Source of the DNA: Paramacrobiotus metropolitanus
Lineage: Eukaryota; Tardigrada; Eutardigrada; Parachela; Macrobiotidae
Direction of reading: 5' to 3'
Length of the DNA stretch: 64,000 bases
NCBI RefSeq assembly: GCF_019649055.1
Contig: NW_026570278.1
Coordinates: 186,001-250,000, forward strand
Positions within the stretch are counted from its first letter, which is position 1. Each line of letters opens with the position of its first letter. Of the stretch, positions 13,399-64,000 are shown piece after piece. Under the pieces are notes generated by a model. That model saw nothing but the letters and a program-made list of their open reading frames with translations, ran no database searches and was not told the origin of the DNA. The translations under genes were made by a program, and so were the position numbers.

Positions 13399-15670
13399 CT
13401 ACACAGACTGCTCAATATGTGCGTCGAGTGTAGCGCTGTTTAGCGGCAACAATTCAGTGCCACTGCCTTCTGTTGTCAAATCCAGACTCGGCATTTCGTC
13501 CACTTCGCCGCCAAATGTGTGCGTCAATTCAGTGGACGCCGTGGAGATCTGTACACTCGGCCTGGATACTGTAGCAACCTGTCTCCCCAGCAGTGGACCA
13601 TTCTCCAGACTTACGGCATTCTTGGCACGTTGCAACGAGCGACAAACACAGCGACATGTCACATAGACAGCCAATATGATGCACAGGCCAAAAACTCCAC
13701 CTACACAGCCGTATATCCAGCTGTACGATTTGGCGTCTTCGTGTACCGCGCTGTCTGTGAAGGGTGACGGTTAACACAATCTATTGAAGAAAGGTCGGGT
13801 AGCAAAATGCTGTGGATAATTGGCTTACTACCTTTCCGATATGGCTCGACAAAGTCGGAATGCAACGGCGCTTCCTGTTTTGACTCGTTGAACAATTTAT
13901 GAAATTTTCCTGCATCAACATTTTGTGTTTTGTCCAACGATCTGTTGCCCGCTGGTTCTGTTACAACAAACGATTTATTCGATTAATAATCACTTCGACA
14001 TGACCAATATTTCGTACGGTTGCATAAATCGTAAAAGAAATAAGTCAATTTGTAACTAGGAAAGCAAATTTTGGCAATAGTTTAGGTGAATATGTACGGC
14101 CACCGAGCGCTTTTATAAGGAGTTGCAACGCTTGCGGTGACAAAAGTACTGATAACGCGTTTTTCGCACTACGTGCACTTGAATAACTTTTGCTGCGCTT
14201 CGGTCGATGGTGTATAAAGAGGTTAAGAGCAACGTACCAGGTATAGATGAATTGTTAACTTCTGTATTTCCGCAAAGGCTGCTGTAGGACGGCGTAATTG
14301 TAGCTTTGATGGTGTCTAAGTCGCCTAAGGTTAAAACAATTATTATTCAACGGATTCTCACCAATGCATGGAAGCGTAACTGGTTCCGGCAGCAAGAGGC
14401 GACTAGAGTGTTCTTACACACTGGTTCGTTAATGGAATATTCACGTTGGTCCGAATTGATTTTCAGTTCCGTAGTGTTTGATGCGTGCGGATCGGCGAGA
14501 CAGTCTACAGGATAAAATATCTGGTCTCTCTTTATTCGTCGACTGCGGGCGATGCCGACAACATAGGTTATTTCGCCTGACCCTAGTTCCAGTCGCAACA
14601 CCTTATTGCTTTCCCTCCATCGTCGAAAATGAGCGAAATCACAGCTACAGTGCAGTCGGCGTAGGTAATCCATCAGCTGCGACCGGCTGACATTGGACTG
14701 GGAGCTGGTTGGATTGAGCAAATCGGACTCCAAGCTCAGCACCGTTAGCTCCCGCAAGGCGCTGAAGGTCCCCGCATCGAGGTGGAGTATCGTGCTGTGG
14801 ACAAAAAGGAGAATGAGCAGGCGCGGGAATCCGCAAAAGTCCTTTTTCCGCACTATCAGCCCATAACAAAACCGTAAATGCAGCTGCATTAAATTGATGA
14901 AACGGAAAACGGCGAGCCTGGATGAAAAACGGGAGTTCTGGCACATACTAAATGACGTAAAAAGTATTTGGTTTCGAATCGGCATGAAAGCAGCGGGGGC
15001 TCCGTTCATCTCATCGCTATCAAGCATTTTCAGTTCGACCACGCGCATTGTCAGGTTCGCCACTGTAACACCCGTTTGGTGCCAGTCATCCAATGTGGTC
15101 GTGGAGTCGCAGGACAGCGGTATGAACCCCCGTAATGAGCAGTCATGGATACGTTCACTAGCACATTTCAGCGTAGCTAACTTATCACACTCCGACGGAG
15201 GAAGATTGCTAATAACAAAATTGGGAATCGGTTCGCGAACACCACCGTCTCCGACTTGTATCGTGCAGTTGTAGGCTGTGTACAATTTGACAATGTCTTT
15301 GGCGCTCAGAGTCCGGCGTTGACCCATTTTAAAGCGTTTCCCTGGTTGTGTTGTTTTAGGGAGGAAGACAGGCAGATCGGGATGTTCGGGATCGGCTAGG
15401 TCGAATGCGCCGTAATGCATAATGGATTCCAGATCGTATTCGGTCCCGTAAGTGGCCATCTGCGGTAGCTGGCGAATCAGAACGCTGTTTGGCGGGAGTT
15501 CTGTTCGATTGAGATATATGCTCAAGTACTCGCTACGATCAGCTCTGTGATGTTCGTGAAATAGACCGAACGCGTGAAGAACCAGATGCTGGAGGGCCCC
15601 GCGAAAAATACATGCTTGCGTTAGAGTGATGTTTTGCTGACCACCTTGTCTGCCAACACTTGACTGGCAT
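13399..15670 (-). CDS. Pseudo-astacin/LRR/transmembrane half of the left astacin-LRR locus
   Basis: Exons in transcription order: 14418-15670, 14238-14324, 13832-13957, 13399-13754. Junctions are phase 1 with consensus sites. The first exon completes an astacin fold: CQSSVGRQGGQQ, the zinc-site region HLVLHAFGLFHEHHRADR and Met-turn SIMHYG. The catalytic Glu of HExxH is Leu while the three zinc His remain, so zinc binding is possible but peptide hydrolysis is not expected. An LRR-like region and an LRRCT-type motif (LRRLHCSCDFAHFRRW) follow. After two short linker exons come a transmembrane helix (WIYGCVGGVFGLCIILAVYV), a Cys-rich juxtamembrane part (CRCVCR) and a cytoplasmic tail of about 85 residues ending AHIEQSV. 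It is probably the 3' part of one gene with 16924-20379. The right-hand homolog (61748-63000) has an exon of identical length, 1253 nt. Confidence 0.75.
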
Positions 15671-15727
15671 CTGCAGCAACGTTGTTAGAATGAATGCTGG
15701 CTGAAATTTCATCCTTAAAGAACTACA

Positions 15728-16496: not shown

Positions 16497-16638
16497 TAAC
16501 CGGCAAAACCGTCCGGATGAATGAATCGTCTGCCGGGCGTTTTTGCCTGTGAGCTGGTAAAACCGTCCGGTTTTGCCGGCGTACAGATAAAAAAGCGTCT
16601 GGCGGACGGTTCATTCGTTCGGACGGTTTTGCCGGTTA
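16497..16638. mobile_element. Foldback MITE with TIRs TAACCGGCAAAACCGTCCG
   Basis: The left arm begins TAACCGGCAAAACCGTCCG and the right arm ends CGGACGGTTTTGCCGGTTA. Pairing continues inward for about 70 bp with mismatches (words CCGTCCG, GCCGG, CGTCTGGC). There is no coding capacity. It lies in the intron-sized gap between the two halves of the left astacin-LRR locus. Confidence 0.7.
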
Positions 16639-16873
16639 CAGCCGTGTTTTCTAGTACGTACTACGTTTGGCACCGAATCTGTCAGATGGCTCACCTCTGT
16701 CCCAACCGAAAAAAGATGTAGTCATTCTCGAGTTCCCTGGCTTTAAACGTCACACATTGTGCAGTGTAGATCGAGATGGAATGTAATGCCTCCTTGATTT
16801 CTTCTCGATCTGCGATGTCTTCACCCAAAGAATACGAACAGTTAGATGACACCAGATATTGTAACAACTTCAG

Positions 16874-19800
16874 TCAGAATTCTTGCATTTCTCGACCTAT
16901 TTCATTTTTACGGTTTATCGTACCGAGCGCTTCGCTGAATAAATAAGCAATATCTTTGCCATTGTTGAGCCAGAATCGGCTGCTAGACAAAAGTCCGGAC
17001 TCTGCAGCGGGGTCACTGCTGAGCGCTTGGTCATCGTAATGGTATATACGGCCTGCCTCATCAATCGCCTGCGCTGTTAGCTCGGATCGTCGTTCTTGCA
17101 AAATCGGTTTACTCAAGCTGGCGGTCCAGTCTGGAACACAGTAAAGTCATCTAACTTTAGCACTTGAAACTGCCGGTGTCCAAGATAGATTTGCATTCCC
17201 TTCATTCTAGAGTTTCTACTAGAAAGTTTGTTCGCCTGTTGTGAGCGCTGCTTAAACGAGAATTAGCAGTAGTAGAAGTAGCGCTTGCACGATTCGTTTT
17301 CCATTTTTCCGAACCCAGCAACCAGTGAAATAGGTTTTGTTGCTGTTTTCTGCGCCTCAGGTGCAGAAAACTCACACATATTTCTTTCGTTCCGTTCGGG
17401 ACTGAATCATGCGATAAACATAACTAAAGGAAGTAAAAATATTCAAAAGTTTTTTGTGCCAAAGAAATGGCTATTTGTGGCGACTAAGGAAAGTTTCTAG
17501 TTTTTCATACAACTTATCATAGGAAGCGCTACTGTGGTTATATGCAGAGGACCTATCTTAACTCAATCAAAATTCAAAACAGTATGGCTTCAGCTTGCGT
17601 TATTCGTTATAGCCCACCGATAGCACCGTTTTTGGTACCAACAGCTTTGCAGGTTTCTGTGCCTTCTAGAATGTTGATCAGGGTGCTTTATACTCAGAAC
17701 TGAACGAGAGAAATTGGTGATAACTATAAGTCCATGGAGAAAGCCAACTGATTAGCTGAATGGCAATATGACTGCCGTACGCATTTGTGAGAGTGCCCGT
17801 TTACGAGCTCGGCTACTGAAAAATAAATCAAATCAAATCAAACCAGAAAGTTGCTGACTGCGCTCCTGGGCTCGTGTTGCAATGCAGGTCGTGTTGCCTT
17901 GTTTTCACCTGGGCTTATATACGGCTCTGTTATGGGAAATTGCATTATGCATTTTTAGTTTAATAAACATCAAAAGACAGTAATGTTACTGTCTAAGAAC
18001 AAAACTGGAATCTGCCGCATTAATAGTACTCTGGGGAGCGTAATTGCCATGCTAGTGAATAAACGCTCACCTTCTTTATTGCCGGTACTGGAGCGTTCCA
18101 GCGTCTTATTTCCTGTCAGGTAAGGTCTAGAACCTCTTGTTGTTGGTGCATGGGTCGGTGCATAAGCATGCGGGCAACTTGGAGCGTTCACAGAGTAAAT
18201 AAACCGGTGATTATTGTTAACCGTCAGCCAAAAATCGTTGCTAGCTTGCCCAGTAGCGCAATCCAGAGACTGATACATTTCTTTTGTCCACCACTGATAG
18301 CGGTATGTTTCGCCCTCCACATCGTAGTCCAATTGCGCTAGCGCCGTCCAGCTGCGCGAAGCGTTATTTCCTTTGTCATTCGAGTCTACCGCAGTTGTTG
18401 GAATGCGGTCTATAATACGTTGCTGTAGCCATGATCGGAAGTGATTGTACTGGCAATCACAGTGGAGTCTACGTAAATATTGATAATAATTTGAGTCACC
18501 CGTCAGCGCTTCGCGCGCTCCGATTTCCATGGACAGAGCTTCAAGATTCGGAAGCGAACTGAACGTAAACTGGGTCACTCCGTCCACCGTCGACTGTGCG
18601 AACAGTATTACGCGAATATTAGGAAAGTCAGCAAAATCCTCGGTCCGAACAGTAATATTGTGACAGTTGTTTACTTCGAGGTATAGCAGATTTTCGAAAG
18701 CCAAGGAAGGTAATTTGCCTGTTGTCCGTCGTTGCAAGCAATCGTAGAGCTGCATCACTAGAATTTGCGTTTTTACCGGAGCAAACGCACGGTAACACAG
18801 ATAACTTCCGTCGCTGACATTTAATTTCACCATTCGTAATGGTGGTTTGGCCAGCGCGAAGGCAATGTCTTGTACGTCTCGCACCGTCGCGTTGCTCCAA
18901 CATCCAATGGCCAAAGCGGTCTTGGAACTCTTGTGCACTTGCTGGCAATAAATCAGAATTGTCGTTTCCGTAGCTGGCAATGAAGAATGCCTCTCCCACG
19001 GTCGGCAAGATTTTCCAAACTGCATCTGACACTGGCTGATGTCGATGGGAGAAAAAGTAAAGGTTCGTTTAACCTTGAGAGATTCATATGTCGCATTGAA
19101 CGTGCTGTTTGGACACTGCGGTGCGTTAACTGAGAATTCGCTCTGGTTAAAATTTATTGCGTCGAAATCGGAAGGAAATGGCTGCACGGCGCAGTCAATT
19201 GGAATATACACATCGTTTATCGTGATCTCTGGTTGATCAATGAATTTCCCATTGGCGAAGTAAAATATTGCAGATGGTTCAAATGTCGCCCGGAGCAGAC
19301 CGCGTTCCGGAAGCCACTTCCGTAGCCAAGCAAATTCGCAATCGCAGTGCATTCGCTTTAAGTAGCCGGGCATGCTTCGGGCAAGATTCTTCTGCAATTT
19401 GTCGCCGATCACCACACCAAATTTTGACGAAATCGATCGATGCCAAACAAGCATCTGCAGTTGCGGCAAGTTGGTGAAGGCTCCTTTTTCCAAGTATAAG
19501 ATCGTCGACTTCTCGAAGACTATAATTTTCAGCGCCGACAAAAATCGGAAATCGGACATTCTGATGCGCATGTCGATACATCTGCGCACTTCAAAATGCT
19601 GGAGATTAATCAAATTGAAGCTGGAAAGCTTCACTGTTGCGTCGTGAGCTTGACAGTCGAGCATCCACAAAATCAGAACTTGTTTCTCAATTGGAGATAG
19701 CAATTCACCGGTTATTTGTTGGTCCTTTAACAATATACCGATCGGCCGTAATGGCGCCTTGGCCATGGCCATAGCCATTGATCGTAAAAGCGTTGTATCG

Positions 19801-20379
19801 GCCGATGCGTTGAACCAAATATTCAGCCACCTAGTTGTTGTGCAGTTCTCGCTATTTAGTTCCGGGACGCTGCAGTACTGATTGAACTGCCAGGCACACT
19901 GCTCTGCTTGCATCTCTAATCCAGAAAACCCAGGAAACGAACGTTCCTCATAGTCATGCTCGTCTATCTCGAATCTCTGGTCAGCTTGGCAGTGGTAAGC
20001 ATTGCGCAACTTGGCGACATCGCGCACGCTTAGTGCTTCCCGTTGTCCCATTCGGTAAACATGCTCCATTCGGGGAATGATCACCGGACGGTATATGGTT
20101 TTAGCAAAGTCATATGGTCCGTAGTGCATCAGTGATTCCAGATCGTAATCCGTTCCAAATGTATCCATGTCAGGAATAATATCATATTGTGATTTGTGAC
20201 TGTCCATTATTTCGTCAACAAAAATTTTTACACTAGTATTCCGGTCACTCCGGCTGTGTTCATGAAACAGACCAAGAGCGTGCAGAATTTCATGCTGAAC
20301 GATTCCCGGACGCATGCACTGGACTGGGTCCAAAAATATTGGTTGTATGCCACCTTTGACTCCGACGTAGGATGAGCAA
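16874..20379 (-). CDS. Catalytic astacin plus two LRR modules, left locus
   Basis: Exon 18071-20379 encodes the C-half of an astacin zinc protease: CSSYVGVKGG, active site HEILHALGLFHEHSRSDRN with catalytic Glu present, Met-turn SLMHYG, domain end around KLRNAYHC. Two LRR-like regions follow, each closed by an LRRCT-type motif (RMHCDCEFAWLRKW and RLHCDCQYNHFRSW) and a C-x-P segment (SVNAPQCP, SVNAPSCP). The exon ends in phase 1 (donor GTGAGC, 18070). The next exon, 16924-17130 (207 nt, phase 1 to 1), encodes WTASLSKPILQERRSEL, then a piece aligned to an astacin propeptide/N-lobe start (SRFWLNNGKDIAY). If its donor at 16923 is not used, translation ends at 16874. The N-terminal exons (signal peptide, first N-lobe) were not resolved: the frame upstream of 20379 meets a TGA. 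Likely one gene with 13399-15670. Confidence 0.75.
17784..17843 (+). mobile_element. SINE/LINE 3' tail with (AAATC)n
   Basis: The sequence GAGAGTGCCCGTTTACGAGC, then CTCGGCTACTGAAAAATAAATC and AAATC repeats is a diverged, inverted relative of 16084-16145. It sits in the intron between the B and A halves of the left locus. Confidence 0.4.
17915..17924 (-). promoter_or_regulatory. Weak candidate TATA box inside the left astacin-LRR locus
   Basis: On the minus strand the sequence CGTATATAAGCCC occurs in the 940-bp intron between exons 18071 and 17130. If used it could start a separate transcript for the pseudo-astacin half, but no signal-peptide exon was found between it and 17130. Confidence 0.15.
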
Positions 20380-22585: not shown

Positions 22586-24066
22586 GCCACATGTGCCCAA
22601 CTCGAATATCATGAGGATTATCTTAAAACGTCTGCCGTCTCTAGATCAAAGGCCTACTTTTTAGCAAGCTCGAAACTGATATAGTTTTTCTCCTGCTTTC
22701 TCGCCGGGAATGTCACGCAACGGACTTTGCTATGTATAGTGGACATCGCTTGCTGGATAACGAAAGCATCCTGAGACCCTGCAAAATATACGTAAATATT
22801 CAGTCAATATTTGCTTTTATCTGTTCAGTAACCTGACTCCAACTTTGACTGTTGTCACCGCCTATCGTCTTGACATCTTTTACGGCAACGCCGGTGACAA
22901 CAGTGTACGTCGTCTGATTTAGTTTATGTCATAGTCCTTTAGGCGGTAGGAGGTCGGAAAAGAGGCAAAACGAAGTGCTTAACTCTGCCGGCTAGCTTAC
23001 CGCATCTGATAACGAACATATCTAGCGCGAAAAACCGTTCGACGGATGAACCGTATGTATACCAGACCAGTTAAACTTCCACCGCAAACTCACCACTCCC
23101 GGGTTTTCTACGTTTTTTCGTACATTTTTAAATCGATACACAAAGGTACCATACTGTAGCCGCACGATGCGATTGCACCACTGTCATGCCCGGTCGTTGG
23201 CTTACCCCTGCCGGCCTCGCACACTTGATGGCGAACATCGAGCAACCAGTTAAACGGATTCCGTACACCTGATTCTGTTGCGGAATCACGTCACGCGGCA
23301 ACAGTAATAAGTACCTCGACATTATGGGTGAAGTATAAATTCGGCGGAGAACGTTTTTGGTAGAGTTTCCGCACGCTTATAACGGAGTAAAAATTTTTAT
23401 CGGGGAGGAAGTTACCATTAGATAGCATATGCGTTACGTCCGGGAATGAATCGACACATTAGCAAATCGATCCCGAAACAAATACACAATCCCAAAAATA
23501 ACGCTCAGATAACGAATTTATACACAGAAGCTTCCGGATTCAAATGAGGGCTTCAAAAAAAGGAAACGCACGGAAGCAAAATGGCACTTCACCTAAAATT
23601 TACGTTTGGAATTTCTGATCCAAATTGTTCACCAACACATTTAAATCTAGTTACAAGGCACTGAAGAAGCCGGCTACGCAATATTTACGGCCGTTAAGGT
23701 ATCCGACACACGGTCTATCCGTTTAAACGATTCTGGCCTTATGTTATTTTGAACTAAATAAAATTTGTATCAATTATCTGCTGCTTACCAAATAGCTCGC
23801 TTATACGATAGGGAACCATTCCTTTCGGCCACAACGGAAATTTTTTCTTTCCTAAAGAATGAGTGTTATATATAATGCACGCTTTACTTTCTTTTGCTCT
23901 GGTGTGTCACTCTTAGCGTGCTGAAAAGCAACAAGTCAAGAAGCGCCAGCGTGGAATTCTGCTTATGACATCCATCTTTTGAATATCTAAGCTTAAGAGG
24001 CCAAAACGTGGTAATGGCTCTTCATCATTTCGAAAATTCGTTAGCAACAATTGGTCGTTATATGAC
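22586..24066. other. Intergenic, no supported gene
   Basis: Short open frames only. A minus-strand frame at 23913-24143 has coding-like composition near its end (PLPRFGLLSLDIQKMDVISR) and might be a further exon of the gene at 24067-25135, but its acceptor phase does not fit, so it was not added. Confidence 0.35.
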
Positions 24067-25135
24067 TTATATTGACTGTGCCTTAATACCTGCAAATCTT
24101 TTCGATCCTTCGCCCACACCAGCATCAGAAAACAGAATATCATCTTGCAGCGATCCGCGGCGGCTTATATTGGACCAGTGGGCTTTCATAATAGCGGGAT
24201 CAATGCGCGTTACCCAATCTGCAAAGCGAAGGCTATCACCTGCGCAACTGCGTCTACACTCTGCATGTAGTATATTTTTCTTAATCCAGTAATTATGAAA
24301 GCTAACTATTTAGTAACTAGTAGGGCACACACATCTCGGTCAGCGAATACGTACGTATTAACGAAATTTCGTTACAATGTAACACAAAACAATTTTTAGT
24401 TGTTTTACCCTTTGGAACGTGTTTTGTCGAAGAACCAAAAATTTTAAAATGAAAACAGTTCATCAAATTTCTCAAGCATAAAAAACTAAAAAAAGGCGAA
24501 ATGTTGTGCCTCCATAATTAATCCATACAAAGCTAAAGCTGTCTTTGGCTCCGAATCCCCGGCTGTGCATACTTTTATTTGTTATACCCTTTCAGCTTAT
24601 AGAAAACAATTAACATCACAACGCAGTACACTCAATCAGCAGAAAACAGCCGCGCGCGGGAGGTCTAAGAACAGAGAACACCTGATGATCAGGTGTTTGT
24701 AAATTTGGTCCTTTATGCTGTTACCTTGCTGTTACCTTGCACTTGCCGAAATTTTGTACAGTATAAGCTGTACGATACTGTAGCTGTGTGTGAGCTAAAG
24801 CCTCTTGGGTTCAGTCAGCAGACAGCCCCCTGCACGCAGTTACAGGCCTAGTATGTGAATCGTGAATGGCGACTGAACGCGCTCATACAATGTACGTCAC
24901 GTTGAACCACTGAAACTTTCGGCAAGTGCAGGGTAACAGTACAGTACTTCGTTCACTTCGTTATTATTAAGTCAGGTGCTCATAACTATTCAGGGTCCTG
25001 TTTTGTTCATTAGTTACCGTCTGGCAACTCATCTGACGGTGAGTCGTCGTCAAAATCGTCATGATAATCCCTGTCGTCCCAGAAGGCATCTATGGACTGA
25101 ATTACCCTAACCCAGAGAATCAGCCTGATAAGCAT
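24067..25135 (-). CDS. Small secreted acidic protein, left copy
   Basis: Exon 1 (25018-25135) starts with ATG: MLIRLILWVRVIQSIDA, a short signal-like segment, then FWDDRDYHDDFDDDSPSDEL. Donor G|GTAACT, phase 1. Exon 2 (24090-24218, 129 nt) follows acceptor CGCTTTGCAG: DWVTRIDPAIMKAHWSN, then RRGSLQDDILFSDAG. A donor GTATTA at 24089 could lead to further exons; reading straight on ends at TAA 24067. The homolog at 48229-49164 (+) has the same exon phase, the same 129-nt second exon and the same core. Total about 80-90 residues. No known family recognised; conservation of a DWxTRIDPAxMKAHW block beside an acidic N-terminus suggests a secreted peptide or binding protein. Confidence 0.6.
24677..24697. 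repeat. Perfect 21-bp palindrome
   Basis: AACACCTGA TGA TCAGGTGTT, perfect arms of 9 bp around a 3-nt centre, within the intron of the small acidic protein gene. It could be a small repeat or a binding site. Confidence 0.5.
24729..24940. mobile_element. Foldback MITE in the intron of the left acidic-protein gene
   Basis: GCTGTTACCTTGCACTTGCC (24729) pairs with GGCAAGTGCAGGGTAACAGT (ends 24940), with pairing continuing into CGAAA/TTTCG. Inner GGTTCAGTC and GACTGAAC also pair. Non-coding. Confidence 0.55.
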
Positions 25136-48228: not shown

Positions 48229-49164
48229 ATGCTTGTTTACCGGTTAATTATTTGCGTTTTTATTCAGTGCGTAGACGGTTTTTGGGATGACAGGGATTAC
48301 CATGACAATTTCGACGACGACCCGGATGAGCTGCCCGACGGTAACTATGTAGTAACTTCGTTATGAGAAAACGGTTTACGTTACAAATTTTATTGATTAT
48401 TTAAGTACAGTACTTAATTGATTTGTTATAACAAAATTGAAATAATATTGGATCGGAATTACAAATCGTAAACACATTTTACATACGGAAATAAGTATCT
48501 TGATGTTACATTATTACACAATAATGTCTGGGATGTTTCACACGCCAGGAATACAAAAATCAAGTTTTCTGTCTTGCCCTCTAGCAAAGTTTGTGCTCTG
48601 TCGTATGCTTCTTAAATTTCGATAATGTTGTCTGGTTTTTTGCCGGCCAAACACTTTTTTCACACAAAACATGGACTCTCTGTATTCTTTTTATCCCATG
48701 GAACTGTATCCCGGAATCATTTTTAATCAAAAATAACAATTATTCCATAGAAATCTTGAGATAAGAGGTACCTTTCGGGGCTCACCGACACTTCGTCGAC
48801 CGCACTACATCGACCGTCACGAAAGCGACTATTAAGAAAACATTAGAAAACAAGAAATAACATAAGAAAACTATGACGGTTTAGCTAGACGTTAGCTCGA
48901 CGTCGTGACGGGTCGACGTTGTGTCTGTTCGACGAAGTGACGGTCGACGAAATGACGGGTCACCCCTTTTCGGAAGTAACGGTTAGTATTGTATTTACAG
49001 ATTGGGAAACGCGTATTGATCCCGCTGTCATGAAAGCCCACTGGACCAATCTGAGCATCCGTGGATCCTTGGAAGATGATATAATGTTTGCTGATGCTGG
49101 TGCTGGCATCGGCCCGCAAGGCACGGCAGGTAGGCCAGAATTCCATTTGCTGATGTCAAAATAA
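48229..49164 (+). CDS. Small secreted acidic protein, right copy
   Basis: Exon 1 (48229-48340): MLVYRLIICVFIQCVDG, a clear signal peptide, then FWDDRDYHDNFDDDPDELPD. Donor G|GTAACT, phase 1. Exon 2 (49001-49129, 129 nt) after acceptor TGTATTTACAG: DWETRIDPAVMKAHWTN, then SIRGSLEDDIMFADAGAG. Donor GTAGGC at 49130, or reading on to TAA at 49164. Same structure as the minus-strand gene at 24067-25135: identical phases, identical exon 2 length and about 70 percent identity in the core. The 660-bp intron holds part of a word-repeat foldback element. Function unknown; a secreted peptide of about 80-90 residues. Confidence 0.65.
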
Positions 49165-49345: not shown

Positions 49346-50795
49346 TTTCACTCGGTGCACTACCATACTTTTTCAATTACCAAACTACCATACTAATTTC
49401 CATAATATTATCACAAATATATACTTATACTTTATAATACTTAATTGATATTATATAGAGACCCAGCGTCAACTTCCTAGTTCCTACACACAAAAAGCTG
49501 CGACACTGGGTCGAAATTCGTTTAATAACGGCACAATGTAAACCTTTGCAAAGAAAAAACCGGCTCATGAAGGCCGAATTTTCTGCTCACGAGAATTTTG
49601 CTAGTGATGCGTTGAATCTTAACCAAAAACAGCTGTTAAACAAAGAACGTTAGTTCTGGAAATAACTTTAATGTAAAAAAATTTAAGATATACATAAGCG
49701 CAAATGACGAATGATACTGTATGGTTACTGGTCAGTACGGAGTCAAACGTACTGCTCGAAAAGATGATGTACCGAATAAAAGATAGTGCAGTGCACGGAA
49801 TGAAAGGTAGTGCAAGACCCAGAAATAAATTTCCAAAAACTAGTAACGTTTTTGTATAAGCGTGGTAATTTTCTTCATTCCAAAATTTTGGCATAACGAG
49901 TTAAAGAAAAGAGAAAACTGCTTTGAAAAATTCTTTACATGGCCAAAGTCCGGAAAGGTTAATGAGAACATCCAAATTTTTTGTAGCGAAAGTCTTGACT
50001 TTGTGGCACTAATGTATGTTATTTTGCGGGTTGGATAGCAGCAAAACGAAATAGGAACCCCCGAGAATGCAATGAAAATCAAAAGCTGCTGGTACAACTC
50101 TGTATGGCTAACTGAGTAATCTACTCTTTTGGAGTACCTGAATATGCGGAATATTATGCCGTTACCTAAGACTGACATATCATAAATTCCTGCGAATATT
50201 CCAAACCCAGGTGCTTGATAGAAATGCAGAATACACAATAACCTACACTGTTTCTGCGGAATAAATCAGCAATGTTTAGGGAGACAAACGGTTTCGCTCT
50301 GGCCGAACGGAAAAGTGCCCTATCGGATAAGCGATCTATTTGGTAAGGCGAAAAAAAGTATGTGTTCAGAATAATACATGTACGTTGGACCGTAATTATC
50401 GGGCTTGGTGTGCGCCTACAATTTCTGATCTTCGCCGGAATGGACAGTGCGCCAAAATGGGAACTACGCATACGCTACTTATCACGTACAGATTGGCGCA
50501 TGTTAGGCGCACCGCACTGTCATACCGGGGCCACTGACTGACCGCAGATTTTACCGAGCACACTACTCATTTTTATCATGCATGTGTCTTTCGCTTTGTA
50601 GACCTTGGTTTTCTGTTAATTTTCATGTGCCACCCGTATTTGCAGACAGCACGGTTTGCAAACGCGCCCTAATTAAAAATTACAGTAGGAGCACGCGTTG
50701 CTATGGAGCAGCCACGACTGTGTCCCCAGAATTTTATTGGTTTAGTTATTAGACAGTAATTTACACATCACTTACAAAAAACATTATAACACAAA
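49346..50795. other. Intergenic and 3' flank of the LINE
   Basis: Nothing recognised. The 3' untranslated part of the minus-strand LINE presumably occupies the right edge; no poly-A tail was seen. Confidence 0.35.
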
Positions 50796-53224: not shown

Positions 53225-53376
53225 AAAATTAACAATGTTACACTTCCCGGCTACTCGAAGGCTACTGACTTCCAACCGCCCTCGGGCTGCGTGGCGGCGC
53301 ATATCAGAAATAAGAGCTTCCTTGATCCTACCCCCAGTCTTGCAGTAGGCGCCTCTCTCGATATATGGACGATATC

Positions 53377-56300
53377 GTACCACTCCAGAAATTCAACCCA
53401 TTATTTTTCGATACGTATTCCTAGTATTCTCGCGTATTCCACCGGTATTCGTTCGTGTTTTCCCTGTATTCCGCCTTATCCGCTCCCTATCCATTAAGTG
53501 TCTCTCTGCAGCGGGCCCTGTATTCCCCGTATTCAGCTAGTATTCTCGCGAGTTCTGCCTGTAATTTAATTAGGAATAAATAAGAAAACATAGGAAAACA
53601 TAGAAAACGAAGAAAAACTTGGAGGAATACAGAAGAATACAAGGAGAACACACAAGAATACCGGTGGAATACGGGGAATACAGGACTCACTGCAGAGCGA
53701 CACTTAATACCTGTTCGGCCTATATTTCGTCTAATCTGCTCCGTATCCATTAAGTGCCTCTCTGCAGCGCACATTGTATCCCCCGTATTCCACCGGTATT
53801 CGTTCGGGTTCTGTTTGTATTCCGCCTTATTTGCTTCGTATCCATTAAGTGACACTGTGGTAGGCCCGGTATTGAGTGTATTCCACGTATTCTCGCGTGT
53901 TCTACCTGTATTCCGCCTGTAGTCAGACTGAGAAGCATAAGAAAACATAAATATACAAGCAGACGACGAACGAATACCGGTGGAATATGCGGGAATACAG
54001 GGCCCGCTGCAAAGAAAAACTTAAGGCCATGGCTAGTTCGGCTTAATTCAGACGAAAAAGGCCGGTTTCTCAAGTTTCTTAAAATCGTATCTTTCTCTCA
54101 ATACACCTGTCTGTCCAGTTTAAATCGAGAAAAATTCACAACTTAAAACTGGTAAGATCGGTTTACAACACACAGTTTAAAGTTTGAATCGAAAAAATCA
54201 CGCTAAAAAACTAACTAGTCTGTAGAGAACCACACAGAGTTTTAGATAGACCACCAAGAAAATCGTGAACGTAGTTCTTCTGCACCTTGCGAGGGCTTTT
54301 TTGGTTAAAAAAATTTTAAACTTCACAAACTTAAAAAAAAACACTTTTGTGGTTTCGATTTTCGTAAATAACTTGAGTAAAAACGATTTTTTTCAAAATC
54401 GCTCTCGCAATTAAACTTCCATGGTTTTTCTTAATTGAATGCATCAAGTTTGAAAATTTTCTTATATCGCCAGAATTAGGAGTTAGTTTTCAGACTTCAT
54501 TTGGTGCATTTTGAACGGTAGCTTTTGACAGTTCAGACAAGTTTACATGAGTCAAAGGCACGTTGACTGTTTCAGCCCACCACACAAACCAAACCATAGT
54601 GACTGTCCAGTAGAGATGGGCATCGGGTCGGAATATCCGATCCAATCCGATCCGATCCGAAATTCGGTTCGGATTTTCGGATAGAAATCCGAGTGAGTTC
54701 GGATTCGGATACGGGTCGGATTTTAAAATTTAAGTTTCGGATCGGATCGGATTGTGAAACAATAGAAAGCAATCTGAACACTACGAATACGGAACCGAAT
54801 ACGAACACGGATTGAAATCGTGTTCGTAAGCGCAACCGAGATCTGACTATGCATTCGGACCGAACCAAATGCCGACACGGTTGGTACCGATGATTTTGGC
54901 TATTTACACTTCGGTTACGGTAATTTCGGCCACCACTCACATTCGACCACATCACATTCAGGCTGTAGTCCACCAATGTAAATTATTGATAATCGAAAAC
55001 TTTGCAAACTTGCAGCCTAGTAAGAAGATTACAAGAATGCGTCGATGCATTGTTGCCAACTTTTATCTGTTTACGAAATTTCATTAATACTTACTTTTAT
55101 TAGGAAAAAAGCCCATAAATACAGCTAATATCGATAACCTGAGCATGTTTATGGTTGCGTAATGACGAACAATTATAATGTGTGTGATATAAATTTTTTG
55201 TTACTTGACAACAGATCACTTGATACACAGAAAAAGAAGCAAACTATTTTGTTGGAACAGAACACAGATTACAGTGACATTACACCACGTTCACCTGCAG
55301 TTTCAGTTCACCACCAGCCTCTCATAATTCAAAAATTCTCGTCACAGAAGAAAACCAAAACGTATAATAAATTCTAAAAAACCAAAGATACCAAAGAAAC
55401 CTAAAAAAACTGACAAAAACAAATAGTTTCTCTTTTAAAAAAACGAAAGTGCTAACAACAACAAATATTAAGTAACAACTTGACACAACAAAAATAAAAG
55501 CCGAAATGACATGTAACGGTGGCCGAATAGAGTGCGGACCGAAGTGAGTAAGGCTAACTGTATGTTGCCGAACTGATAACATGTGGCCGAAACGTAGCGC
55601 GGCCGAAGTGTTCAAGCAAAAACTGCCTCAGACCGGAAGCGCTCAACCGCCCGAGTCGGCGACTGCAAGTTAACTAGCTGCACTCGATCCAACTGCTTTT
55701 AGAATTTTCCTATTGGTCGGTTGAGCTCGATGCGTACGGCTGTACGACTCGTACAAGTTTAATTTTTTAACGTAATTTCAGTTGTGATACCTCATGTCAA
55801 TCAAAAATTTGTTCTTAACTTGTGAAAAGGGTTTTCAAAAACTTCTTAAACTCATAAAAAAGAGGAATGTTTTCTCTACTTAAAATCCAGAGCAAACGGA
55901 ATTCCATCAACACAGGCAGAATCGACAGCTATCCGGAGACACGTTACGATTCAAAGCTTAAATTTCGTGCTTTACGGAAGGTTTACGAAACGAATAGGGC
56001 TATGACGTCAACAAAATAGGCGGGGATTCGTATTCGGAACTGTATTCGTAGTGTTCAGATTGCTTTCTAATATCCGAGAAAATCCGACCGGCTTGCGCAA
56101 CGACAAATAAAACATTTTTCGTCTTTAAGAAATAAAAAAATCCGCATTCGCCGTATGCGGAAGAAGTTCAAGAATGTATTATGTGGTGGGAAATCAAGAT
56201 TCCTGTTACACGTTACAGCTGAACCGAATGTGATTTGTCTGTTTTGCACTAGTGTTCCACCAAGGATTTTACTGAAAGTTAGTGCATTCGCTTTTTCTCA

Positions 56301-57107
56301 GTATTATATGTCACAAATTCAGGTTTTTTTTACCAACAGTTAGCGCAAACGGTTTTTCCAACTAGTATTAGCTACTGCGAAAATTTCTGTGACGGGTATA
56401 GTGCTTATTATCAAAAACTAATTTTTTTTGTAACTAAGTCGGATTTAAATCTGATCGGATTCGGATATCCGATGGTCGGATACGGATCGGATTCGGAAAT
56501 TGTAATCCATAAAAACTCGGATACGGATCGGATTTGGATTTTTTTAAAAAATTCGCGGATCGGATTCGGATTTAAAATTTGGATCCGATGCCCATCTCTA
56601 CTGTCCAGACAGCCGATTGCTCGCTTCCTTTCACACTTCGGTGTGATCGAAATCTATTGTCTTTCGGTGTTCGCTCTCATTCTACTGACCAGTGCTCGGT
56701 TTTATGGCTGTCAGTAAAACAAAAGATGTGGATCACAATTCTGCGCTCTCCATTGATTTCATCGCAGGTGCGCTAATTTGTATAAGCGTCTGTAATGGTG
56801 AGCCGGGCCAGTCACTGCTTGCACCATTATTCAGTTTAGGCAGCTAACTTAAAAAATTCATATTTCATAACCCTGCAGTTTAATCACTTTGATAATGTTG
56901 CCATCTAATAGAGCAGTCTTCAATCTATATAGCCGTTTCTTTTTGCAAAATGGCACCTTAGGATTAAAGCCGAACCAGCCATGGCCTTAACGGACACGAG
57001 GCGGTTAAAGCGGAATACAGGCAGAACACGAACTAATACCGGTGGAATACACGGGAATACTAGGGATACGTAACCGAAAATGATGGGTCGAATTTTTGGA
57101 GCGGTAC
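53377..57107. mobile_element. Large foldback element of GGAATAC words, split by a hAT-like insertion
   Basis: 53377-53474 (GTACCACTCCAGAAATTCAA onward) is an inverted copy of 57010-57107 (ending TTGAATTT-type TTTTTGGAGCGGTAC). A second inverted match links TAAGGCCATGGCTAGTTCGG (about 54021) to CCGAACCAGCCATGGCCTTA (about 56972). The left arm to 54010 is packed with GTATTCC and GGAATAC words in both orientations and has A-rich spacers with CATAAGAAAACATA. Without the 1990-bp insertion the element would be about 1.7 kb. Non-coding. Confidence 0.65.
54611..56600. mobile_element. hAT-like non-autonomous DNA transposon with 8-bp TSD
   Basis: Termini are perfect 16-bp inverted repeats, TAGAGATGGGCATCGG and CCGATGCCCATCTCTA. 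The element is flanked on both sides by the 8-bp direct repeat CTGTCCAG (54603-54610 and 56601-56608). An 8-bp duplication and a TAGAGATGGGC-type end are hallmarks of the hAT superfamily. The subterminal 150 bp on each side are packed with CGGAT(C) repeats (GGATCGGAT), typical of transposase-binding clusters. The 2-kb interior has only short ORFs and no transposase motif, so it depends on a partner element. Confidence 0.85.
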
Positions 57108-57119
57108 GAAACGAGCCAT

Positions 57120-57859
57120 AGGTGGCTCTCTGCCATCAGGTTTGAAAAATATGGCTTCACCAAGATTTCCACTCAGGGGGTCGTTAATAATTGTCAAACG
57201 CAAAACGATAATTGCGCCCTAAATTACGTAGATGAATTAATCGGTCAGCTGAATAGGGAAGACGAGCCCTTAAATAGGCCTGCACATAGGAGTACAATCT
57301 AGTTGTTGTAAAGAAGTTCAGAAAAACCGGTGTTACGTACGCTCTTAGGCATACACATCCTTGGAAATAAGTACACGACCACGCGTACCAAAATTACTAT
57401 TCACTTTAAACATTCTAACTTCAAAAATATTAATTACGTGCGAATTTTTTTGTACGGAGGGTTTACGCAAAAGTGCTTTCACTGTAATGACCTTAGAGCC
57501 ACTAAAAGGTTGTACAGTTTGGCTGCTCAAGCAGAGGTGCATGCAAGCTGGGTACGGTAATCGCAAATCCAGGACTGCCGTTAAACCATATACTGGTATC
57601 AGGTAAACACGGCGTTCAGTTTCAGTAGACCCCAATGTGATGCTGTTTGGACATCTATATAATAGCTTATACACTGATTAAAATATAACGGCACCCCACA
57701 GAACAGGCACTTACTGGGTTAGGGCATGTCTCCCAAATAAGTGCCTCTTCTCCATAGCTAACAACTGCTTGTGCCCCAGAGCACCGAGTTTGGCAATTAC
57801 GGCACGTTTACATTAAGCACCTCATGTCCCTCAAATTTACTGTATTCATGTATTTGCAG
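57120..57859. other. 5' region of the right astacin-LRR locus, first exons unresolved
   Basis: The signal peptide, propeptide and IPY-type start of the first astacin domain should be here. A frame near 57483-57560 (ATKRLYSLAAQAEVHASW) precedes a possible donor and may belong, but I could not place it with confidence. Confidence 0.25.
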
Positions 57860-60800
57860 GATCGCAAGATGTTTTTGTTATTCAGCAAGCCATTGCTGCA
57901 ATCGAGAGCAAAACCTTTCGTTGTGTAACTTTTACGGAGAAAGGGAAAGAATCAAATTATATCAACTTCCAGCCCGGAGAAAAGTAGGCTGCCTAATTTG
58001 TTTTGTCGTAGTACGCCATGTAAAAACTCGACCGTATTGGGCTGTGACATTACTAGCACCGGTAGTTACATATAAGAGACTTCTTGATTTGCAGCAGTGT
58101 TATATTACAATGGAGAATTTATTGTGTTCGTGCTGAATCATGCAACGGAACCGCGCCCGGTTCAAGGCAGTGATAATCAAAATTATATTGACTCTTGTTA
58201 CTAGGGTCCCACTAACTTTTTGCTTATTGGAAACGCAGCAGTTAGGCCATAAGCACGGTATCTGTTAAACACACTCTCGAGTTGGAGTGCGGCTACCATA
58301 GTTCGCTAAAGTCTCACTGCAGGTTGAAAAAACAAATTCTGGAATTGCAGTTGTTCGTCCTATGTTGGAATTCAAGGCGGCATGCAGCCTGTGTTTTTGG
58401 ATCCAGCCAGATGCATGCAGCTAGGAATAGTTCAGCATGAAATTCTTCACGCTGTCGGTTTGTTTCACGAACACAGTCGCAGTGACCGGAATGCTAGTGT
58501 GATTATTTACGAGGACGAGATAATGGACAGTCACAAATCGCAGTACGGTATCATTCCCAACATGCCCACTTTTGGAACGGATTACGATCTGGAATCGCTG
58601 ATGCACTACGGTCCATACGACTTTGCTAAAACTGCTTTCCGCCCGGTCATGATTCCAAGAAAGGACGGTGTTTATCGAATGGGACAACGTGAGGGTTTAA
58701 GCGTGCGCGATGCCGCAAAGTTGCGCACTGCGTACCAGTGTCAAGTTGACCAGGGGGATGAAAAAAACGACCAGGATTCCGAGGAACGACCCTTTCCTGG
58801 CTTCTCCGGGTTGCCTATGGAAGCAGAACAGTGTGCTCTACAGTTCAATGACCACTGCAGGAGTGTTACTTCAACCGTAGACAATTGCACGGGTGATAGC
58901 CTTTTACTATTATACTGTGATGAATCCGCAGATAATTCTTTTCTGCGAGCAACGACAACAGCCATGGCTAAACCGCCTTTGCGACCAATCTTTCTGGTAT
59001 TAACGGACTCACAGATAACAACAGAAGCCCTGTATCCAGTTGAGAAACTGGTGAAGCATTTGCAGATGGGTCACTGTCGAGCTAGTGATAGTACGTCAAA
59101 ACTTCCAAGTTTTTCTTTCATCAGTCTCCAGGAGTTGATAATCTTTCGCTGTGCTGACATTCGAATCAAGAAGTCTGACTTTAAATCCTTGCCGTCGCTG
59201 AGAGTTATAGTTTTTCAACTTACAACAATTTTGTACTTGGAAGAGGGCACTTTTACTAACTTGCCGAAACTGCGAATAATATCTTGGCATGAGGATTTGC
59301 TCAGGAACTTTGGTACGGACCAGGACCGTATGTTATACAATAATGAGAAGTTCGACGGCAACCTTGTCCATAGCATGCTAGAATATTTAAAGCGCATCCA
59401 CTGCGACTGCGAATTTGCCTGGCTGAGAAGGTGGCTCGACCAAAGTGGTATCCTTCAGCCTGTTCCTGAATCATCTGTTATTTTTGATTCCGCCAGTAGA
59501 TACATATCCGGGAGCGAGTTCAACAGGATCGATATTTTCATACCGATTGACTGCGCGATGCAGCCATTTCCTTCTGATTTCAGCATGATTAATTTCGCGC
59601 AAAACGAATTTTCCGTCAACGAACCTCGTTGTCCAACACGCTCGGTCAATGCAACCTATGAATCTTTGAAGTTTAAGCGAGTATATTCTCTGTCTCCCAT
59701 CGATTTACGACAATGTCGGTTACAATTTGGGAAAACTTGCAAACCATGGGAAAAGCGCTCTCCTCTACAAGCTACGGAATTGGCTGTATTAGATTATTGT
59801 CTGAATCTATTCACCAGTTCTCAACCGTTTTTAAATATTCAGTGTTTGGGTAATGCGACGGTTAGAGACGTGCAAGAAATAGCATTTGCACTTGCCAAAC
59901 CACCATTACGGGTTGTGAACTTAAACTTGGATGATGGAAATTACATAACCTACCGTGCGTTTTCCCCAATCCGAACGCAGATTCTAAACATGACAATCTA
60001 CGATTGCGTGGGAAAGCGGGCAACTAGTAAATTAGCTTCCTTGTATTTCGAAAATCTGTTGTATCTCGCCGTTGCTAACTGCCACAACATCATGGTGCAG
60101 GTAGAGGATTTCGCTACCACTCCCAATATTCGCATCATACTGTTTGCACATTCAACGGTGGTCGGAGTTACACAGTTCACCTTTAGCTCTCTTCCGAATT
60201 TGGAAATTCTTTCCTTAGAATACGAAGCACAAGAAGTGCCCACCGATGACTCAGCGTATTATCGGTATCTACTGAGGCTTCACTGTGATTGCGAATATTC
60301 TTCATTTCGTGCGTGGCTGCAGCAACGTATCATTGACCAGATACCAACTGTTTCTTCGAATGTCTCAATTGACACGTACAGAAATGAAAGAATGATTTAT
60401 AGAGCTGACCTGCCGAACGTCTGGACGACGATACTTGAATTCGAGGTCGAGGGAGGAACCGGCGTGAAGCGGTGGTATTGGGGAAAAGCGGAACTCTATC
60501 AGCGTTTCGACTGCGCTATCGGGAAGATTAACGACGATCAACTGCTTTTACTGTTAGCTGAAAATTCTAGCCAGTTCAATTACTCTCTCAATGCTCCAAG
60601 CTGCGAAAATGCTAGTTCGTCTGCGAACTTGCCAGTGATAACAAGCTTGCAGAAATCTTACCCGAGCGAAAGCGGGACGATGGACAGTAAAAGCAGCACT
60701 TCGAAGAAAGGTATGCAGTCAATTTGACCGATATGATAACCTTAGTTACCGGTATTTCTGTAAAGCAAACCAATCTGACGATATGAATTTAGTGTAGCGC

Positions 60801-61199
60801 AAGTTTACGGGTCCGCGCTCAGCGGCATTTTTAACGGAGCGTAAAGCTTCGGTAATTCAAGGTTTCTTTAACATGAAAGTGAGTTACGTTGTTATTAATT
60901 CAGTAAAATTTATTGTGGAGCGACAAACACAACAGAAGCAAGCAAATCGCGATACAAAGTATCTAACGTTAGGTAGCTTTGTTATGTTTTAGATTGGACA
61001 GCTAGCCTGAATAGAGTAATCTTGCAAGAGCGACGATCGGAACTAACCGCAAAGGCAGTTGACGGGGGAGGCAGTGCTTTCCATTATGACGACCAAGCAC
61101 TTAGTAGCAGTTCAGTTGCGGAGTCCGGATATCTGACTGCCAGCCGCTATTGGCCAAACAACGGCAAAAATGTTCCTTATGAAATCAGCGAAGCGTTCG
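57860..61199 (+). CDS. Catalytic astacin plus two LRR modules, right locus
   Basis: Exons: 57860-57983 (124 nt), 58351-60710, 60993-61199 (207 nt). The first gives the astacin N-lobe (VIQQAIAAIESKTFRCVTF, SNYINF) and ends in phase 2. The second continues CSSYVGIQGG, with active site HEILHAVGLFHEHSRSDRN (Glu present), Met-turn SLMHYG and domain end LRTAYQC. Two LRR-like regions follow, each closed by an LRRCT-type motif (RIHCDCEFAWLRRW, RLHCDCEYSSFRAW). The third exon, phase 1, encodes WTASLNRVILQERRSEL and then YWPNNGKNVPYEISEAF, which is the propeptide and start (W...VPYEI) of another astacin domain. Its donor at 61200 joins in phase 1 to 61418, so this and the next entry are probably one gene. 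If the donor is skipped, the product ends at 61252. Confidence 0.8.
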
Positions 61200-61417
61200 G
61201 TATGATAACCATCATTGAATGGGGTACTTACCACCAACACATCAATATCTAATGTTTTACGTAATTCAGTCTGAATACCAGTATTACAGTAGAGTCGCCC
61301 ATTCTTAAGTTTTTACTTTTTTCACTTATATTCCGCAAAACCAATGCACATAAAAAATGCTTGCGTCGGACACTAAATAAAATGAAACGAATTATCTGTT
61401 TATTTGGTTCTGCGAAG

Positions 61418-63715
61418 ATGTGCCCGACGTTGAGGAAATCAAGGATGCACTGCATACTATCTCGGCATACACGTCCCAATGCGTAACGTTCAAACTTAAA
61501 GAGCGGGAAGACGATTACATTTTCTTTCAGCTGGGACAAAGGTAGGCGGGGGAGTCCGTGCATTGCGATTTTTCTGATACAACAAGCAACCGCCTCTGAC
61601 TCTGTGATTGTTTCGGTCTAAGGTATCAGCTACGAGTACTTTATATAGTTTAACAACCTTACTGATTTTAACCATCAGTCAGCAGATTTAGACCGAAAAT
61701 GTGGTGAAAAAACCCTAACCAGCAAACTATAATAATTATTATTACAGGTGCCAGTCCAGCGTCGGCAGACAAGGTGGACAGCAAAACATCACGCTGTCAC
61801 AAGCCTGCATCTTTCGCGGAGCTATCCAGCATCTGGTTCTTCACGCAATGGGACTTTTTCACGAACATCACAGAGCGGATCGGGATGATTACCTGCGAAT
61901 ATATTTCAACCGAACGAACGTTCAACCAGACAGTTTTCTGCTTCGTAAGCTTCCACAGATGCAAACGTATGGAACGGAGTACGATCTGGAATCGATCATG
62001 CATTACGGCGCATTCGACCTGACCGACTCCCAACAATCGGATTTGCCGGTGTTTCTTCCCAAGAAAACGGCACGAAAAGGAAAACCAAGTAAAATTGGGC
62101 AGCGGCGAACTTTGAGCGCCAAGGACATTGTTAAGCTGTACACTGCCTACAACTGTACAATGCAACCGCAACACCGTGGTGCTTACGAGCCGCTCCCGAG
62201 TTTTGTTAAAGAACTGCTTTCTTTGCAAACCTGCAATACGTTATCCAGATTGAGATGTGCGAGTTCGAATATCGTTAACTGCACGTCAAGAGGTAGAGCC
62301 ATAGATTTGTTATGTGGCCCGAGCACCACGATAGATGATTGGAATCAAACTGCTGCAACAGTAGCCAAACTCCCGCTACATGTCGTCATACTGCAGATAG
62401 TGGTTAACCGTTATATACACGACGCGCCAGACGCTTTTCGGCCAATTCGCAGACAAATCATTTTTGCGACTTTTTTCCATTGTCAAAACTGTCGGTTCAC
62501 ATCCCTGCTGCCCGTTTTCGGTTTCATTAATGTGATGCACCTTCGTTTGATGATGTGTTACGGGCTGATAATAAGAAAGAAGGATTTCTACGGTTTCCCC
62601 AGGTTGCAAATTCTAGTATTTGCTGCTGGCACTATACTTAATCTGGAAAATGGAACTTTCAGCTCGCTGCTAGATTTGAAAGTGCTAAGCCTGGAGCACA
62701 ATCTGTTTAGTCCAGTCAGTTCTGCTTTTAATGTCAGTCTATCTCAACAAATCGATTACCTACGCAGACTGCACTGCGGCTGCGATTTCGCCGACTTTCG
62801 AATGTGGAGAAGAAAAAACAAAGCGCTGCGAACGGAACTAGAGGAAGGTGAACTAACATTTGTTGTGGGAGTCGCCGGAAATGGTAGAATAAAGAAGAAT
62901 TACGTATTTTATCCCGTCGATTGTTTTGCCAGCCTACCACACACTACGGACATCAAATTTAATTTTTCTCAACTGGAATACTCGATCAACGAACCGCTGT
63001 GTAAGTGTACATATTTCACAATTCCATTCTGGTTAGGTTATCGCTTATTGGAGCATCTTGCGCGCAAGAGCTTGCAGATTGTATTTGGTTATTGTTGGCA
63101 TGTGTGACTGGTAATAATGTCCCCTCATCACCCATGCCAGATACTTAGTAAAACATTGCGACGCTGCTGTCTCCATAATGACCAATTTCGGAATGTTTTT
63201 GGCATGGAACGCTGGTGTAACGCCTGTGGCAGTTTTCGAAAGGTCACGAACCGACTTGCAATCAGCTTTCCCGTGTAGGCCCCCCATGCTACCATTCCAA
63301 CCAAATGGTTACCGGTTTGGTGATGGAGGCAGGAGGGGCATGGCAAAAATGTCCGTGGGACACGGGGACATTTTTACTTGTCACACATGTGGACGTGTTC
63401 TTGCAAGCCTAATTCTGATAATTTTGTAAGCTGCAAGCTACAATTTGTATAATATCTTTACATCCACATGTCTGTTTGATCTATGATTCCGCGAACATTT
63501 CACGCTGTGTAGAAAAGGGTTGTGCATGCAAAGTTACAGTAAGTACTAAGAACATAAATGCTGTTTATATGCATGTAAGAGAAAGAACAGTCTGATAATC
63601 GATTACTTGCAAGAATGCGATAATCGTTTAGGCGAACCCGGAAGCACAGCAACCATAATGGCCTATGACAAAGAGCAGTGCAAAGCTGGATTTGTAAACC
63701 AGTCACCGGAACCGG
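61418..63715 (+). CDS. Pseudo-astacin/LRR half of the right locus, continues past the window
   Basis: Exons: 61418-61541 (124 nt), 61748-63000 (1253 nt), 63632-63715. The first gives the N-lobe of the second astacin domain (VEEIKDALHTISAYTSQCVTF, DDYIFFQLGQ) and joins in phase 2 to CQSSVGRQGGQQ. The zinc-site region is HLVLHAMGLFHEHHRADRD: three zinc His are kept but the catalytic Glu is Leu. Met-turn SIMHYG is kept. An LRR region and LRRCT-type RRLHCGCDFADFRMW follow. The linker exon (EPGSTATIMAYDKEQCKAGF) ends at donor GTATGT. By comparison with the left copy, the next exons should encode a linker, a transmembrane helix and a cytoplasmic tail beyond 64000. Confidence 0.75.
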
Positions 63716-64000
63716 GTATGTTTCGAATAATTCCAGGACAGTTTATACGCTGGTAATTCATGTGCTGTGTAATCCACTAAGCATGTATTTTTGCTTGGTG
63801 TGCTGAGGATTTCGAATAGCGAAATGACTAGAAGTATGCAAAGAGTAAAACGCAATGCACCGGTATTTTTTCCTCCCACTAATGCATGTATAATATTGTG
63901 CCCGGTTCAGAGGGCAATTCGGCCTACCATTGTATTAACCGTATAATGCCCCTTTATTCTCTATTGCGACATAGAATAAAAGGACCATGGCCTACGGTGG
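63716..64000 (+). other. Intron of the right astacin-LRR locus running off the window
   Basis: No exon homologous to 13832-13957 of the left copy was seen before the window ends. Confidence 0.4.

Follow-up and report, generated by a model that had tools for sequence, protein, structure and literature searches.

Astacins are much-studied matrix and signalling proteases, usually of multidomain architecture. The Glu of the astacin motif acts as general base/acid, and the Tyr of SIMHY is a further zinc ligand (PMC9848320). The legend to Figure 1 of that paper, which lists partner domains of astacins, names no leucine-rich repeats (LRRs), and the paper's main text nowhere uses the words leucine, tandem or inactive. 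Astacin and LRR8 are named together in one scavenger-receptor figure legend of PMC7663992, where a protein carrying both is possible. In the literature searched, mostly at abstract level, no LRR-astacin fusion and no tandem of a live and a dead astacin was identified, i.e., we did not find an LRR-astacin combination with live and dead domains described. Here, we analyzed a 64-kb stretch of the genome of the tardigrade Paramacrobiotus metropolitanus (contig NW_026570278.1, positions 186,001 to 250,000; hereafter the window, numbered from its first nucleotide) and found that it holds two intact, old copies of an astacin-LRR gene, one on each strand.

The order common to both copies is a signal-like N-terminus, a propeptide, astacin 1 (HEILH), two successive LRR-LRRCT modules, astacin 2 (HLVLH) and a further LRR-LRRCT module. 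After this third module the minus-strand copy adds a stalk, one transmembrane-like segment, a tail and a stop. With moderate confidence we favor one gene, present as two paralogous copies and encoding a large type I membrane protein, in which a zymogen astacin 1 would be combined with a dead astacin 2 and an LRR binding platform. An LRR partner together with a conserved in-chain pseudoprotease would make this a natural system in which to study the role of a dead metalloprotease beside a live one, a counterpart to carboxypeptidase D in another family, and the two diverged copies reveal the conserved parts even without a second genome.

Gene models of the two copies

An all-frame listing of 56500-64000 shows two long frames of the plus-strand copy, with 799 and 462 codons between stops. 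When this region was shuffled 200 times in two-base blocks, no frame exceeded 234 codons, and the longest frames averaged 131. The limits given to the gene in the first-pass annotation, 57860 and 63715, have to be corrected at both ends. The gene begins at 48229, approximately 9.6 kb earlier, with three additional exons (Table 1) that carry a signal-like segment, the propeptide and astacin 1's own W..VPYRI start; most of the missed 9.6 kb is a single 7.5-kb intron containing a reverse-transcriptase frame. At the other end, the plus copy is cut by the window edge, and the C-terminus is seen only in the minus-strand copy. Within the window the plus copy comprises 9 exons and 1485 amino acids (aa) with no stop inside, and 8/8 of its introns are GT-AG.

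A translated search of the window with the plus frames returned the same blocks on the minus strand, from 22785 to 14407, the two long frames being 57% and 64% identical to their counterparts there. When frames were compared with frames, the similarity began further upstream, near 48.2 kb on the plus strand and 25.2 kb on the minus strand. This second copy (minus strand, 25135-13399) is complete, with 11 exons, 1630 aa, a single stop at the end and GT-AG borders in 10/10 introns. The stretch 13399-20379, which had been named for checking together with the plus copy, belongs to the second copy, as its exons 5-11.

The two proteins are identical at 889 of 1461 aligned sites. The eight shared introns have phases 1,1,1,2,1,1,2,1 in either copy (8/8 equal), an agreement that is partly built in since the exon borders were set by hand with the other copy as a guide. 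Of nine shared exons, five are equal in length and four differ by multiples of 3. A more independent test of the gene models is the rise of the Pfam Astacin score on splicing, together with near-complete coverage of the profile. In the plus copy the score rose from 126 to 169 bits for domain 1 and from 117 to 152 bits for domain 2, and in the minus copy from 126 to 168 and from 100 to 135 bits, respectively. After splicing, positions 2-188 of the 189 in the profile were covered by both domains of the plus copy and by domain 1 of the minus copy, and positions 5-188 by domain 2 of the latter.

Each astacin C-terminal part shares one open frame with the LRRs that follow it, in both halves of the gene. 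Thus, the astacin-LRR fusion itself does not need splicing, while the join between the halves does. Exon 6, which had been assigned to the second astacin rather than to the end of the first half, does belong there: the W..VPYEI start lies in it, and it is joined in phase 1. The claim of one joined protein is supported by the two paralogous copies with equal phases, by the lack of a single start exon in the plus-copy intron between the halves, and by the Pfam coverage. From these sequence features we strongly infer a single transcript joining both halves, and two separate genes appear unlikely. The doubling of the astacin-LRR unit would fit a duplication within the gene that preceded the duplication of the whole gene: exon 4 has the same phases as exon 7 (and, in the plus copy, the same length, 124 nucleotides (nt)), LRRs lie behind both astacins, and identity between astacin 1 and astacin 2 is 46% within the plus copy and 41% within the minus copy, against 75-76% for each domain between the copies.

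A surface protease-receptor had been proposed. Of this, the location is supported, by the signal-like N-terminus and by the transmembrane-like segment of the minus copy. The plus-copy N-terminus is hydrophobic, with a Kyte-Doolittle hydropathy (KD) of 3.0 over 10 aa. In the minus copy a single strongly hydrophobic segment lies close to the end (KD 2.28 over 19 aa); hydropathy windows of 1.51-1.75 also occur inside the third LRR module of both copies. Anchoring at the surface is strongly suggested by this pattern, and the protein would be of type I. Pfam found no family in the minus-copy tail (exon 11), hence no TIR domain, the plus copy ending at the window edge. In the exons scanned (5 and 8 of both copies and exon 11 of the minus copy) there was no Pfam match to MAM, TRAF/MATH, CUB or EGF.

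Astacin domains and LRR modules

The catalytic-type astacin (HEILH) and the second astacin (HLVLH) are present as first read, and they recur in both copies. Pfam matched Astacin in the two long plus-copy frames at 1.9e-36 and 1.3e-33, and astacins were the best match of both frames among solved structures. Three zinc-binding His, the Glu after the third His, SXMHY and four Cys are found in 4/4 domains. When compared with HEXXHXXGXXHEXXRXD, domain 1 (HEILHAVGLFHEHSRSD in the plus copy, HEILHALGLFHEHSRSD in the minus copy) keeps both the catalytic Glu and the family Glu; the motif is followed by RN, the full motif ending in RD. A SLMHY Met-turn and 4 Cys are present in both copies, and the propeptide motifs LEDDI and LQDDI keep the Asp and Ile of FXGDI, with F and G changed. 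Judged by its motifs, domain 1 would be an active peptidase.

In domain 2 the residues for zinc binding and for the fold are retained at the sequence level (HLVLHAMGLFHEHHRAD and HLVLHAFGLFHEHHRAD; three His, the Tyr of SIMHY, 4 Cys), and the catalytic Glu of HEXXH is replaced by Leu in both copies, so that the hallmark of an active peptidase is lacking. Since the ligands are kept and the general base is lost, zinc binding by domain 2 would be possible, but peptide cleavage by the usual mechanism would not be expected, by the rule given in PMC9848320. What had been called a second propeptide is indeed a conserved segment, with 36/52 sites identical between the copies, but the FXGDI motif is absent from it and the propeptide label is unproven.

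The dead domain is conserved between the copies as well as the live one. Identity amounts to 140/187 sites (75%) in astacin 1 and 148/194 (76%) in astacin 2 (no difference, p = 0.81), and to 52-60% in the LRRs (154/297 for LRR1 with linker, 183/305 for LRR2, 158/280 for LRR3), astacin 2 exceeding LRR3 at p = 1e-5 (Fisher). Over the 65 sites around the zinc motif, 51 are identical in astacin 1 and 50 in astacin 2. The ratio of nonsynonymous to synonymous substitution rates (Ka/Ks) came to 0.07 in astacin 2 and 0.13 in astacin 1, compared with 0.18-0.22 in the LRR regions, and reached 0.63 in the linker of 34 sites that follows LRR2. These values are rough, since Ks is approximately 1.5 and synonymous sites are near saturation. 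Bootstrap ranges of the ratio of nonsynonymous to synonymous differences per site (pN/pS) were 0.16-0.31 for astacin 1 and 0.13-0.25 for astacin 2, which overlap each other, and 0.32-0.50 for the three LRR regions. These values clearly indicate that the dead astacin is under strong constraint and is not decaying. As it is conserved as well as its live partner, it probably has a job of its own.

Two LRR/LRRCT modules after astacin 1 and one after astacin 2 had been claimed, and homology places them there, in the same frames. Pfam LRR_8 scored 28.9 (plus) and 27.1 bits (minus) in exon 5, above the cut-off of 27, and 22.4 and 19.7 bits in exon 8, below it; the plus-copy long frames also gave sub-cut-off matches to the R13L1/DRL21 LRRs and to DUF2695. 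An LRRCT with invariant Cys and Trp closes each of the three modules (6/6 rows over both copies). Among solved structures, the downstream part of exon 8 resembles TLR13 and SLITRK1 (about 5e-07). For the corresponding part of exon 5 the matches were confined to LGR4/LGR5, with values of 0.0002 or weaker. A profile built from the six modules of the window matched TLR13 at 1.5e-18 and LRRC4B at 5.5e-09 (among the best 60 of 74 matches). A protein model of exon 8, built from six alignment rows, had a mean predicted local distance difference test score (pLDDT) of 59.6, with values of at least 76 per ten-residue block over residues ~151-320, the LRR part. A Foldseek search with this model gave 1526 matches at E <= 10 (50 listed), of which the 11 at E <= 0.001 were all LRR structures: OsSERK2, TLR13, Toll, TLR5 and one repebody complex, whose chain we take, by its length, to be the repebody. 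Query TM-scores were low (0.17-0.26). The third module is modeled with confidence as an LRR solenoid with a Cys-rich cap.

Weighing of the explanations

In the protein that we favor, astacin 1 would be the membrane-distal domain, a canonical zinc endopeptidase by sequence and made as a zymogen, and astacin 2 the membrane-proximal one, with its fold-defining residues and zinc ligands kept and its general base lost. The three LRR-LRRCT modules and the dead astacin would form a stem and probably a binding platform, which might position a partner or a substrate, or cluster the protein, for astacin 1; we infer this role of the platform from the architecture. The earlier suggestion of a regulatory or targeting role of the dead domain towards the live one is plausible as a hypothesis.

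Several points weigh against this explanation, apart from the hand-set borders, the near-saturated synonymous sites and the overlapping bootstrap ranges given above. The N-terminus of the minus copy is weak as a signal (KD 1.96 over 10 aa, no 19-aa window above 1.5), and both the signal and the transmembrane calls are made by hydropathy only, the transmembrane segment and the stop coming from one copy. The exon-5 model was unusable (mean pLDDT 37.5), so modules 1 and 2 rest on homology. In the exon-8 model residues 1-147, i.e., the astacin part, remained below a pLDDT of 50; half of the astacin fold is missing there, since it is encoded in other exons.

It is possible, if on the unlikely side, that the protein serves in the processing of cuticle or matrix, its LRRs and dead domain doing no more than spacing and anchoring the live domain, with no receptor role. 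This would be compatible with membrane anchoring. Astacin roles include the processing of extracellular matrix components (PMC2824743), and the LRRs diverge more between the copies than either astacin does. Against it stand the LRRCT, retained with its invariant Cys and Trp in every module, and the dead domain, which is as conserved as the live one.

A somewhat doubtful alternative, itself compatible with our preferred explanation, is that one locus gives several isoforms (live-only, dead-only and joint), in which case the dead form would be a decoy or a dominant partner. The blocks of exons 3-5 and 6-8 each start and end in phase 1, so that either could be skipped in frame, and the phases are common to both copies; such symmetric phases are, however, expected anyway from exon shuffling and intragenic duplication. 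Retention of intron 5 would yield a secreted live form under this alternative. We note here that in the plus copy such retention would end the protein five codons past exon 5 (60711-60727), a possible secreted form with the live astacin only.

We regard as rather unlikely a ligand-gated surface protease, in which LRR recognition, with the zinc-competent dead astacin as an exosite or clustering module, would control the live astacin of the same chain. If true, sensing and proteolytic output would reside within one receptor.

Two neighboring genes wrongly joined, one for an active astacin-LRR-LRR protein and the other for an inactive astacin-LRR membrane protein, strike us as very improbable. 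On their side, the plus-copy frame of exon 5 stays open until a stop codon 14 nt inside the intron, and among the coding regions compared conservation is lowest in the linker that closes exon 5 (7/34 sites, 21%). Moreover, the intron between the halves in the minus copy (940 nt) holds two candidate start exons, running from ATG to GT: one of 20 aa, moderately hydrophobic (KD 1.66 over 8 aa), and one of 12 aa. Neither, however, has a counterpart in the plus copy, whose intron 5 contains no ATG-to-GT phase-1 exon of at least 12 aa, in a test that covered single exons inside the intron and leaves a promoter within exon 5 possible. Exon 6 is free of Met in both copies, with an in-frame stop 19 nt upstream in both, and donor, acceptor and phase of the join are conserved between them. 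The only AATAAA or ATTAAA in the introns between the halves belongs to the minus copy.

That astacin 2 is a functionless decaying relic is hardly credible and was rejected on constraint: the catalytic Glu is lost, and the minus copy deviates at the domain start (IAYLFS vs. VPYEIS in the plus copy, the profile match beginning at 5 and not 2), but identity between the copies is 76%, Ka/Ks is 0.07, and HLVLH and the other motif residues are retained although synonymous sites are near saturation.

Features of the window and known systems

Table 1. Exons of the two astacin-LRR gene copies and the plus-copy intron between the halves (window coordinates).
Feature	Position	Strand	Content
Plus exon 1	48229..48340	+	Start codon, signal-peptide-like segment, acidic stretch; hydrophobic N-terminus; homologous to 25135-25018
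Plus exon 2	49001..49129	+	Propeptide with LEDDI (FXGDI-like, Asp and Ile kept); 129 nt in both copies
Plus exon 3	50280..50342	+	Astacin 1 start (LWPNGKVPYRIS)
Plus exon 4	57860..57983	+	N-terminal subdomain of astacin 1
Plus exon 5	58351..60710	+	Remaining astacin 1 (HEILHAVGLFHEH, SLMHY), then two LRR-LRRCT modules, one open frame
Plus intron 5	60711..60992	+	282 nt, separates the halves
Plus exon 6	60993..61199	+	Conserved segment with YDDQAL, then astacin 2 start (YWPNNGKNVPYEIS); Met-free
Plus exon 7	61418..61541	+	N-terminal subdomain of astacin 2; 124 nt, phases as exon 4
Plus exon 8	61748..63000	+	Remaining astacin 2 (HLVLHAMGLFHEH, SIMHY), then third LRR-LRRCT, one open frame
Plus exon 9	63632..63715	+	Stalk start; weak similarity to 14324-14238 (10/27 aligned sites); gene continues past window
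Minus exon 1	25018..25135	-	
Minus exon 2	24090..24218	-	Propeptide, LQDDI; 129 nt
Minus exon 3	23789..23851	-	
Minus exon 4	22658..22778	-	
Minus exon 5	18071..20379	-	HEILHALGLFHEH; two LRR-LRRCT
Minus exon 6	16924..17130	-	
Minus exon 7	16695..16818	-	
Minus exon 8	14418..15670	-	HLVLHAFGLFHEH; third LRR-LRRCT
Minus exon 9	14238..14324	-	Stalk
Minus exon 10	13832..13957	-	Stalk; no support from the other copy
Minus exon 11	13399..13754	-	Transmembrane-like segment, Cys-rich juxtamembrane part, cytoplasmic tail, stop; no support from the other copy

Inside plus-copy intron 3 lies an 808-codon frame with RVT_1 (50796-53222, minus strand), to which a short frame at 15719-16021 is 40% identical over 55 aa. 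The same large intron contains several inverted repeats of 71-135 nt with 77-82% complementarity (53364-53831 and 56986-57120). Identical 76-aa translations at 29120-29347 and 31356-31583 flank a Retrotrans_gag frame (31126-30425, minus strand), which looks like a recent long terminal repeat (LTR) element. Two paralogous frame pairs, with 30% identity over 128 aa and 34% over 103 aa, lie at 5468-6475 (plus strand) and 44715-43474 (minus strand), each set within several kb of one astacin-LRR copy, and a two-gene block may have duplicated with its orientation altered. The plus-strand frames of this set had no Pfam match. Further paralogous short frames, with 46-75% identity over 25-54 aa, are found at 39227-39871 and 45355-46113, and the plus strand also carries an F-box protein frame (34113-35087) and a frame matching sialic-acid-specific acetylesterase (38518-38994).

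Relatives were sought in contig scans with short conserved peptides, which reach close relatives only. In viral contigs three queries gave 58, 56 and 2 pattern matches with no confirmed relative, and in genome contigs 106 pattern matches gave three confirmed loci, all bacterial and all matching in the astacin part (L001-L003); Pfam found Astacin in 3/3 and LRR in 0/3 of their match-bearing frames.

When the locus is compared with described LRR proteins, Toll-like receptors, LRRC4B and LGR share the LRRs with a Cys-rich C-terminal cap, with matches in both sequence and fold. Unlike in Toll-like receptors, the tail here has no Pfam match and so no TIR domain. We know of no peptidase domain in extracellular LRR-LRRCT proteins. 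Slit is an LRR protein as well. In Drosophila it is cleaved by an astacin, Tolkin (PMC7648596), yet these are two proteins and no fusion.

With the astacins of family M12A (BMP1/tolloid, meprins) the protein shares the Pfam profile (2-188 of 189), the zinc motif, the Met-turn, the family Glu and four Cys, as well as, in part, the FXGDI-like propeptide of domain 1; meprins are likewise membrane-anchored. It differs from them in its LRR partners and in carrying a pair of astacin domains on one chain, of which the second lacks the catalytic Glu. A LysM-astacin, named in PMC9848320 from the tardigrade Ramazzottius, represents another architecture.

Carboxypeptidase D, as described in PMC11266112, has, like the predicted protein, a signal peptide, tandem peptidase units with the active ones in front and an inactive one at the end, a transmembrane segment and a tail. 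However, it belongs to a carboxypeptidase family, its partners are transthyretin-like domains and not LRRs, and its third domain has lost nearly all active-site residues. According to the same source, pseudo-ADAMs are metzincins without the general base, of which ADAM7 (HQLGH) and ADAM29 (HHLGH) retain three His, and the surface of the dead metalloprotease domain of ADAM22 binds the leucine-rich protein LGI1. These ADAMs are separate proteins that bind in trans, whereas here live domain, dead domain and LRRs lie in one chain. Carboxypeptidase D and ADAM22 are the nearest working parallels for the proposed mechanism.

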